From a virus, in the IMG/VR virus record IMGVR_UViG_3300017782_000168, positions 1 to 26,974 of that record: a DNA stretch of 26,974 nucleotides. One strand, written 5' to 3'. Below are positions 25,605-26,712 of the stretch, piece after piece. Position numbers and translations under genes: made by a program. The notes beneath the pieces were generated by a model. It had not been told where the DNA came from. It saw nothing but the letters and a program-made list of their open reading frames with translations, and did no database searches. How positions within the stretch are numbered: position 1 is the first letter of the stretch; every line of letters starts with the position of its first letter.

Positions 25605-25665
25605 TCTCTCCACTAGGGGACAAATTGGGCTACAATGGAGGAACAGAGATTGTTGTTTACGTTAT

Positions 25666-25705
25666 GTTAGCTATCTCTCCCTTTAGGGTGAGAGAGATAA
25701 CTAAC
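25666..25705 (+). ncRNA. Long stable hairpin in the non-coding region
   Basis: GTTAG (25666-25670) pairs with CTAAC (25701-25705), then one mismatch, then TATCTCTC (25672-25679) with GAGAGATA (25692-25699), with a small CC/GG inner stem. Thirteen pairs plus the inner stem. No U-tract follows, so it is not a plain terminator. May be part of a structured RNA or a DNA-end signal. Confidence 0.55.
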
Positions 25706-25777
25706 TTAACTACAACAACTCTCAAAACATACCAACCAAACTTTCAATCCAAAGCGATTGTTAACTGGCTTAAGTAG

Positions 25778-25811
25778 CTCGATAACTCAGTGTCAACCAA
25801 CAGAGTTCGAG
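25778..25811 (+). ncRNA. Hairpin CTCGA..TCGAG in the non-coding region
   Basis: CTCGA (25778-25782) pairs with TCGAG (25807-25811), and ACTC (25785-25788) with GAGT (25803-25806), with a TA bulge and a 14-base loop. It lies between the 25666 hairpin and the tRNA-like element. The remaining bases 25812-25900 show only weak pairing (CAGC/GCTG) and no ORF. Confidence 0.4.
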
Positions 25812-25900
25812 GTTAAAACATAACAGCGTAGCCTTGATAAGCTGCAGACGTGACCATCAGAGTCAGCGGACAGAGTGGGAATAAAACAAACGGGAAACAA

Positions 25901-25945
25901 GGCAGTGCCGGTGCACTTGTTCAAGGTTCGACTCCTTGACTGCCA
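25901..25945 (+). ncRNA. tRNA-like minihelix 1 (acceptor plus T-arm)
   Basis: CAAGG-TTCGACT-CCTTG (25922-25938) is a perfect T-arm: a five-pair stem and a seven-base loop with the TTCGAxT consensus. It is followed without a gap by ACTGCC (25939-25944), which pairs with GGCAGT (25901-25906) as an acceptor stem, and then a single A in the discriminator place. Only 15 bases (25907-25921) stand where the D-arm and anticodon arm of a real tRNA would be. There is no anticodon and no encoded CCA (CTT follows). The 11-bp coaxial helix is the size recognised by RNase P and other tRNA enzymes. Not a functional tRNA; the function is unknown. Confidence 0.65.
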
Positions 25946-25946
25946 C

Positions 25947-25971
25947 TTATCCACATTTGTATTACATACAA
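25947..25971 (+). promoter_or_regulatory. TATCCACA motif copy C with adjoining inverted repeat
   Basis: TTATCCACA (25947-25955), a perfect match to the DnaA-box consensus TTATNCACA, directly follows minihelix 1. Next to it TTGTAT-TAC-ATACAA (25957-25971) is an inverted repeat of operator type. Together they lie just upstream of the KTSC-like gene. Confidence 0.45.
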
Positions 25972-25977
25972 GGTCGG

Positions 25978-26007
25978 ATAATTGTTCACTTATTTAAAAA
26001 CAATTAT
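25978..26007 (+). promoter_or_regulatory. Hairpin that includes the start codon of the KTSC-like gene
   Basis: ATAATTGTT (25978-25986) is complementary to AACAATTAT (25999-26007), nine pairs around a 12-base loop. The A and T of the ATG at 26006 are within the stem. No Shine-Dalgarno sequence is present. It could restrain initiation, for example in a temperature- or factor-dependent manner. Confidence 0.45.
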
Positions 26008-26302
26008 GTTTCAAATTAAATCTCGTACTAGTGTTTGTGCTGCTTACAAGGGCGTAAAGGTTAACCCTTTTAACAAGACTGTTCAGTTCACATATCAAAA
26101 CGGTAGAACTTACCTATACAAAAACGTTGCAAGGACTAAGATTCTTAATCTTATGTTCAACGATGTAATAAGCCTTGGTTTATGGGTTCAATCACTTGTT
26201 AACGAGTCTGTTTATGAGAACAGATACAACGTCCAAACAGGGCGTCTTACCTACACAGAGTGTGGGTTCTCACCATATACCGACAAGTATATCAACTACT
26301 AG
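26006..26302 (+). CDS. KTSC-domain-like small protein
   Basis: 98 residues from ATG 26006. I prefer it over an upstream in-frame TTG at 25982 because that codon lies inside the hairpin arm. The segment VQFTYQNGRTYLYKNVARTK, followed by a helix, resembles the KTSC domain (typical pattern: short strand, F-x-N-G-x-x-Y-x-Y-x-x-V), a small fold found alone or fused to lysyl-tRNA synthetase or phage proteins. The C-terminal part (GRLTYTECGFSPYTDKYINY) is aromatic and unassigned. It is the first gene after the long non-coding region and so probably an early gene. Its stop codon's G is also the first base of minihelix 2. Confidence 0.7.
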   Translation: MFQIKSRTSVCAAYKGVKVNPFNKTVQFTYQNGRTYLYKNVARTKILNLMFNDVISLGLWVQSLVNESVYENRYNVQTGRLTYTECGFSPYTDKYINY

Positions 26303-26340
26303 ATCAATGGTTGTAAGGGCGGTTCGATTCCGCCCTGATC
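26302..26340 (+). ncRNA. tRNA-like minihelix 2 (acceptor plus T-arm)
   Basis: GGGCGG-TTCGATT-CCGCCC (26317-26335) has a perfect T-loop consensus. It is followed directly by TGATC (26336-26340), which pairs with GATCA (26302-26306). That gives 11 pairs in total, as in minihelix 1, with only ten bases (26307-26316) replacing the D and anticodon arms. A shared TTGT-(n)-AAGG sequence precedes both T-arms. No anticodon and no CCA. It starts on the last base of the KTSC-like stop codon and lies upstream of the next gene. Confidence 0.65.
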
Positions 26341-26344
26341 CCTT

Positions 26345-26363
26345 GCTACTCAATGAGAGTAGC
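26345..26363 (+). terminator. Hairpin between minihelix 2 and the next gene (weak terminator?)
   Basis: GCTACTC (26345-26351) pairs with GAGTAGC (26357-26363), seven pairs around AATGA. It is followed by CATTATTT rather than a clean T-run, so it may end few transcripts or instead protect a processed 5' end. Confidence 0.45.
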
Positions 26364-26376
26364 CATTATTTAAATC

Positions 26377-26712
26377 ATGCAAGAATCAAGATTAACAGTG
26401 GCACTCGATGAAAGATTTACTGACATCGAAGAGGTCAAGGACACAGCTAACCACGGTTGCGGCGGTGGTGTTAGCGGTTTCATTTACTATTATGAAACTC
26501 GTAAATTCTTTAATGAATACGAGGAAGAAATCGAGCAAGAACTAGAAGATATCTTCGGTGATCGTTGGATGGCTGACATGGTAGCAAGTCAATCAGTACA
26601 CGACACGGTGACATTTAAAAATCATTGCGTCTGGGTAATCGTTGAACTCTATTGTCAAGATAAGAGGGACGCTTACGAGTTAGCACAAGAAATAATTAAT
26701 AAAGTTAACTAA
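26377..26712 (+). CDS. Conserved phage protein (DUF7222-like)
   Basis: 111 acidic residues. The pattern ANHGCGGGVSGFIYYYETRK, followed by F-x-x-Y-E-x-E-I and a C-terminal helix (AYELAQEIINKV), matches in outline the small phage family I know as DUF7222 (HG..GG.SGFIYY..T..F). Soluble, no signal peptide or membrane segment. No catalytic set can be named, although the conserved His-Gly-Cys and Tyr residues could form a site. The start lies 13 bases after a hairpin and has no clear ribosome binding site. Probably early or accessory, by its place in the putative left end. Confidence 0.7.
   Translation: MQESRLTVALDERFTDIEEVKDTANHGCGGGVSGFIYYYETRKFFNEYEEEIEQELEDIFGDRWMADMVASQSVHDTVTFKNHCVWVIVELYCQDKRDAYELAQEIINKVN

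Follow-up and report, generated by a model that had tools for sequence, protein, structure and literature searches.

The early region of the window, by which we mean the whole 26,974-nucleotide stretch of viral DNA that was analyzed, carries two tRNA-like elements (TLEs) that lack an anticodon arm. Both are genuine and not chance folds, and TLEs are a large cyanopodovirus family of anticodon-less tRNA-like elements that is missing from Rfam. They are probably minimal tRNA mimics at which host RNase Z, and in some cases RNase P, cuts the early mRNAs apart. With a little less assurance, we also favor a broader reading: a widespread processing code in which mimics interchangeable with tRNAs recruit RNase Z to early transcripts and to those of the capsid gene, dividing them into mRNAs of one gene each, all with one standard hairpin-capped 5′ leader.

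Table 1. Positions in the window of the two elements, their flanking hairpins and the adjoining genes.
Feature	Position	Strand	Details
Non-coding early leader	25640-25900	+	ends at TLE-A; long hairpin ATCTCTCCCTTTAGGGTGAGAGAGAT at ~25660-25710
TLE-A	25901-25945	+	acceptor GGCAGT (25901-25906)/ACTGCC (25939-25944); 15-nt linker
TLE-A T-arm		+	CAAGG-TTCGACT-CCTTG
Hairpin TTATCC...GGATAA	25947-25981	+	starts at tRNA position 74 of TLE-A
First early ORF	26006-26302	+	98 aa; phrog_7365 (function unknown)
TLE-B	26302-26340	+	acceptor GATCA (26302-26306)/TGATC (26336-26340); linker ATGGTTGTAA
TLE-B T-arm		+	6-bp T-stem GGGCGG/CCGCCC, loop TTCGATT
TTGC + pentaloop hairpin GCTACTC-AATGA-GAGTAGC	26343-26363	+	covarying stem
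Second early ORF	26377-26712	+	111 aa; DUF7222; ATG 34 nt after TLE-B position 74

As listed in Table 1, TLE-A and TLE-B are acceptor/T-arm elements of 11 pairs each (acceptor and T-stem summed), just as an earlier sequence-only reading had described them. We searched both strands with one structural definition: five T-stem pairs around TTCRANY, an acceptor of 5-7 pairs, a linker of 8-20 nt, and a 3′ strand of 11-13. The window gave two matches compared to 0.1 expected per dinucleotide shuffle, both on the + (coding) strand and both within the early region. TLE-A scored 52.4 bits with model R2 and TLE-B 47.7 bits (rough E-value 3e-15) with model R1, each being among the training sequences of its model. 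Single-sequence folding was weak for TLE-A (z -0.98) and moderate for TLE-B (z -2.4) and is not decisive; the proof of the elements is therefore comparative. The linker of TLE-A has space for a small D-arm-like hairpin, which is clear in most relatives.

ARAGORN found no tRNA at TLE-A or TLE-B, and neither element matched any Rfam 15 family, RF00005 included, above its gathering score; cyano_tmRNA gave a 17-nt match to the T-arm only (11.5 bits compared to a gathering score of 70). No complete cloverleaf was recovered from the TLEs by ARAGORN or RF00005, and the anticodon arm is absent, the linkers being 8-20 nt long in most of them. What they retain, as judged from sequence, are parts able to form the elbow: a T-loop TTCRANY and a D-loop-like GG. 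The GG was present in 65 of 65 linkers of three alignments, and it is consistent with docking between D-loop and T-loop. We prefer this count to 118/119 because the finder gave a small bonus for GG in the latter. The GG is also the conserved part of what had been read as “TTGT-AAGG upstream sequences”; these proved to lie within the linkers and are not conserved in relatives. In searches of the open-licence PMC literature, several of them directed at the enzymes, we found no report of such elements and no description of a phage that punctuates its transcripts with recurring mimics lacking an anticodon and, at some slots, with real tRNAs. Punctuation by tRNAs is known from mitochondria, and the principle is therefore not new.

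The family extends well beyond the window. Both positions are also occupied in P-SSP7 and in eight IMG/VR contigs, by elements whose stems differ in sequence; the TLEs of P-SSP7 lie at about 603-648, 965-1046, and 2563-2603. Scans for the T-arm, for neighboring genes, and for the T-arm with a trailing hairpin added P-SSP2/P-SSP3, P-GSP1, P-SSP10, NATL2A-133, S-RIP2, and S-CBP3, while covariance models added S-TIP37, Syn5, and S-RIP1. A model built from the P-SSP7-like class A elements recovered untrained elements in S-RIP2 (E 6e-7), Syn5 (5e-6), and P-SSP10 (2e-5), E-values being rough for the covariance models built in this analysis. Altogether, 185 candidates with five T-stem pairs came from 106 contigs. 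Fifteen were called tRNAs, and 14 of these were judged real; the other, an ARAGORN tRNA-Arg in contig L166, is a false call at the site of a TLE and was set aside manually. There were 170 TLE candidates in about 100 contigs, taken from finder output uncurated row by row, and a few are probably chance matches; many of the contigs are interrelated, and their hosts were assigned by inference. Of the short-linker TLEs, 105 are distinct; among them the 5′ strand of the acceptor occurs in 61 versions and that of the T-stem in 36.

Model R1 had no match in 19 genomes of the Prochlorococcus/Synechococcus group, the positives for this model coming from phage records in a separate run, and model R2 gave one borderline match (rough E-value 0.048) in 8 host genomes. 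The class A pattern, when searched in viral contigs, returned among the matches listed mostly unrelated contigs with apparently ordinary tRNAs. A pattern built on the conserved trailer gave no match. TLE-like elements were also seen in contigs unlike cyanopodoviruses, one of them 177 kb (L259 1614-7260 and L185 1690, with TGACACG..CGTGTCA at L259:2465). Class C elements (L021 8565-8624; L151, L222-L224) have an extra arm, GCTGACTCCGAACAGC, and are intermediate between a D-stem-less tRNA and the minimal form. The annotated P-SSP2 ORF CYLG_00016 (L021 8479-8805) overlies the long TLE at L021 8565-8624 and may therefore be spurious.

Conservation of the structure was measured in alignments of the first-slot elements (A1), the short elements (A2), the class D elements upstream of the PSSP7_001 homologue (A3), and a mixed short set (A5); alignment A4 was left out of the counts because it mixes two break positions. 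RNAalifold recovered the acceptor and T-stem in A1 and A3 and the T-stem and trailing hairpin in A2. Pairing was 98.8% in A1, with a covariation score of 0.471 compared to 0.163 after shuffling, and 94.1% in A2 (0.581 compared to 0.164). A5 was 89.1% paired (0.692 compared to 0.153), although it leans towards the structure because its members were chosen by pairing. None of 500 shuffles reached the observed covariation score in A1, A2, or A5, and structures slid along the alignments were only 35-57% paired. Homologues, compensatory changes and a retained position before early genes, by which the sequence-only reading had proposed to judge the elements, were thus all found. Class A elements also have a D-arm-like hairpin, which is small and occurs in either of two registers.

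The placement of the elements follows a pattern in which a tRNA or tRNA-like element lies between consecutive genes. Between successive elements there is usually one ORF and sometimes two; contig L284, for example, reads TLE-ORF-TLE-ORF-TLE-ORF-tRNA-Asp-ORF. Some gene boundaries have no element, and there is none between ORFs 2 and 3 of the window. A trailing UUG/UUA-hairpin starts exactly 13 nt past the T-loop, which is tRNA position 74, in 66 of the 77 TLEs with a hairpin within the search range of 10-16 nt, and at 14 nt in 10 more. The same spacing of 13 nt was obtained for all 11 of 11 real tRNAs, and it is exact at TLE-B, where TTGC and the pentaloop hairpin together begin at position 74. 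The commonest form of the hairpin has the loop ANUGA. Positions 74-76 are TTG or TTA in 114 of the 170 TLE candidates, and CCA falls outside the eight commonest triplets. The ATG most commonly lies 31-35 nt from position 74, and a second cluster of distances is seen at 41-43 nt. On the other side, an upstream ORF was identified for 106 TLEs, and in 53 of these its stop codon overlaps the 5′ strand of the element; at TLE-B the acceptor shares its first base with the stop TAG (26300-26302). The upstream stop codon of real tRNAs is 23-43 nt away, often ahead of a small hairpin.

Real tRNAs can occupy the slot of a TLE. Before homologous genes, tRNA-Asp in one contig corresponds to a TLE in another (L287 compared to L254, 65% protein identity; L267 compared to L284, 46%), and the spacing is unchanged where tRNA-Asp replaces the TLE. 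A second slot lies upstream of the major capsid gene: here S-TIP37, Syn5, S-RIP1, and P-GSP1 have a TLE and NATL1A-7 has tRNA-Gly. The P-GSP1 element in this slot has the variant T-loop TGCGATT and no GG, and Syn5 is among the phages with a single element, which is the one upstream of the capsid gene.

Several other features of the window adjoin these slots. The leader before TLE-A, taken here as 25630-25900, has a TACAAT -10-like box and no Rfam match; it is conserved and common to members of Tiamatvirus and Tritonvirus. The hairpin behind TLE-A makes up the 5′ section of the first ORF's leader and is homologous in relatives. One of its arms is TTATCCACA (25947-25955), a perfect DnaA-box consensus directly 3′ of TLE-A that is kept in several relatives. 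The gene between the elements, previously read as KTSC-like, has no KTSC match in Pfam and matched only phrog_7365. The sole Rfam 15 match above gathering score in the window is a Glutamine-II riboswitch at 777-833 (56 bits). A mini-ORF (about 850-890) follows it, and the major capsid gene (1055-2368) lies further downstream. The gap between mini-ORF and capsid gene holds a TLE or tRNA in related phages; the window has only a plain hairpin there (~896-930).

The cut site of RNase Z is tRNA position 73/74. The RNase Z model TIGR02651 scored above cut-off in four of four host genomes, and only 1 of 30 host tRNAs encodes CCA, position 74 being mostly U. RNase Z recognizes the tRNA elbow (PMC4810234), and the enzyme of B. 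subtilis is activated ~200-fold when a U lies no more than 2 nt from the discriminator (PMC10100781). Human ELAC2 seems to probe for earlier 5′ maturation; this counts against the favored reading, as do the nonstop messages that a 5′ cut would leave at overlapped stops, the phages with a single element and the gene boundaries that have none. Cyanobacterial RNase P favors substrates without CCA (PMC4264200). From the host genes and tRNAs and this literature, we infer that a 3′ cut by RNase Z is the constant step. An 11-13 bp coaxial acceptor/T helix, with a GG D-loop equivalent able to dock with the T-loop, would let the host enzyme gauge the distance from elbow to acceptor and cut after position 73. 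The downstream mRNA would then begin with UUG or UUA at or a few nt from a stable hairpin, in the commonest layout some 32-35 nt ahead of the AUG, and every gene would thus receive a 5′ UTR of standard form, capped by a hairpin. The 3′ end of the upstream mRNA would be protected by the TLE or, after RNase P, by a hairpin of its own. Early polycistronic RNA would thus be divided into units of about one gene.

One possibility is that the TLEs are not cut and act as folded mRNA elements, as a 3′ stabilizer, a road-block, or a 5′ translation aid for the next gene, by means of tRNA-like stability or binding of the ribosome or EF-Tu. The stop codon is frequently within the TLE strand, the start codon is nearby, and the adjoining hairpin covaries; however, this view predicts neither the strict register at position 74, nor the U found there, nor the replacement by complete tRNA-Asp genes, and we consider it unlikely. 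It could also be speculated that the main cleavage is the 5′ cut of RNase P and that the 3′ hairpin only protects. A ~12-bp acceptor/T helix without CCA suits the cyanobacterial enzyme, and there is a hairpin just 5′ of real tRNAs and of class D TLEs. Nevertheless, the constant register is found on the 3′ side, and where the stop codon overlaps the acceptor, as in TLE-B and half of the TLEs counted above, a 5′ cut would yield nonstop messages; this makes RNase P as the main enzyme improbable. A 5′ cut is likely for real tRNAs, plausible for class D, and doubtful for B-type elements, since in TLE-B the upstream stop codon sits within the acceptor strand. The proposal in the sequence-only reading that host tRNA enzymes cut out the messages is therefore kept in part: the tRNA substitution and the leader starting at position 74 speak for punctuation by a host enzyme, but a 5′ cut by RNase P would remove the upstream stop in half of the TLEs that have an assigned upstream ORF.

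We give still less weight to the idea that the TLEs decoy or soak up a tRNA enzyme, a tRNA-modifying enzyme, or a tRNA-directed defence. The T-loop and GG elbow are a handle common to many tRNA enzymes and there are several copies in one genome, yet a decoy needs neither a fixed intergenic position nor a fixed spacing to hairpin and start codon. Least probable are decayed tRNA genes or attachment-site remnants without function. Descent from tRNAs is plausible given the real tRNAs in the same slots, but the extensive compensatory changes, the exact spacing, the many genera, and the lack of a match to model R1 in the 19 host genomes all speak against loss of function. We rejected a pure remnant because the stems covary. 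The most likely explanation is that RNase Z cuts at the TLEs.

TLEs add to the known RNAs a family that is not in Rfam. If the proposed mechanism is true, they would be unusually small natural substrates of tRNA enzymes within mRNAs, a possible reason for the odd single tRNAs retained in such phages, and a ready-made part for RNA punctuation. Like the tRNA-like domain of tmRNA, they have an acceptor, a T-arm, and a D-loop without a D-stem; unlike tmRNA they are far shorter, the minimal forms being too small for a tag ORF. Known phage substrates of RNase P include M3 RNA and the C4 antisense RNA of P1/P7 (PMC11143913). These are phage RNAs processed by a host tRNA enzyme, as is proposed here for TLEs, but they are small RNAs whereas TLEs are repeated intergenic elements.

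In the TMER transcripts of MHV68, a tRNA-like element is followed by hairpins and cut by RNase Z. The TLEs would share the hairpin directly at the cut site; in contrast, TMERs are Pol III transcripts of a eukaryotic virus with microRNAs as their output. In T7, intergenic cuts by RNase III split the early transcript and leave terminal hairpins. TLEs would likewise divide an early transcript at intergenic sites in phages akin to T7, although their fold differs and so, presumably, does the enzyme. In mitochondria, RNase P and RNase Z release the mRNAs lying between tRNAs. Here too, tRNA structures lie between single genes of a polycistronic RNA, and real tRNAs occupy some slots; the differences are that the setting is a phage, that most elements are anticodon-less mimics of ~39-60 nt, and that a dedicated leader hairpin stands behind them. 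If the reading is right, abundant marine T7-like phages separate their mRNAs by way of a host enzyme, as T7 does with RNase III and mitochondria with their tRNAs.
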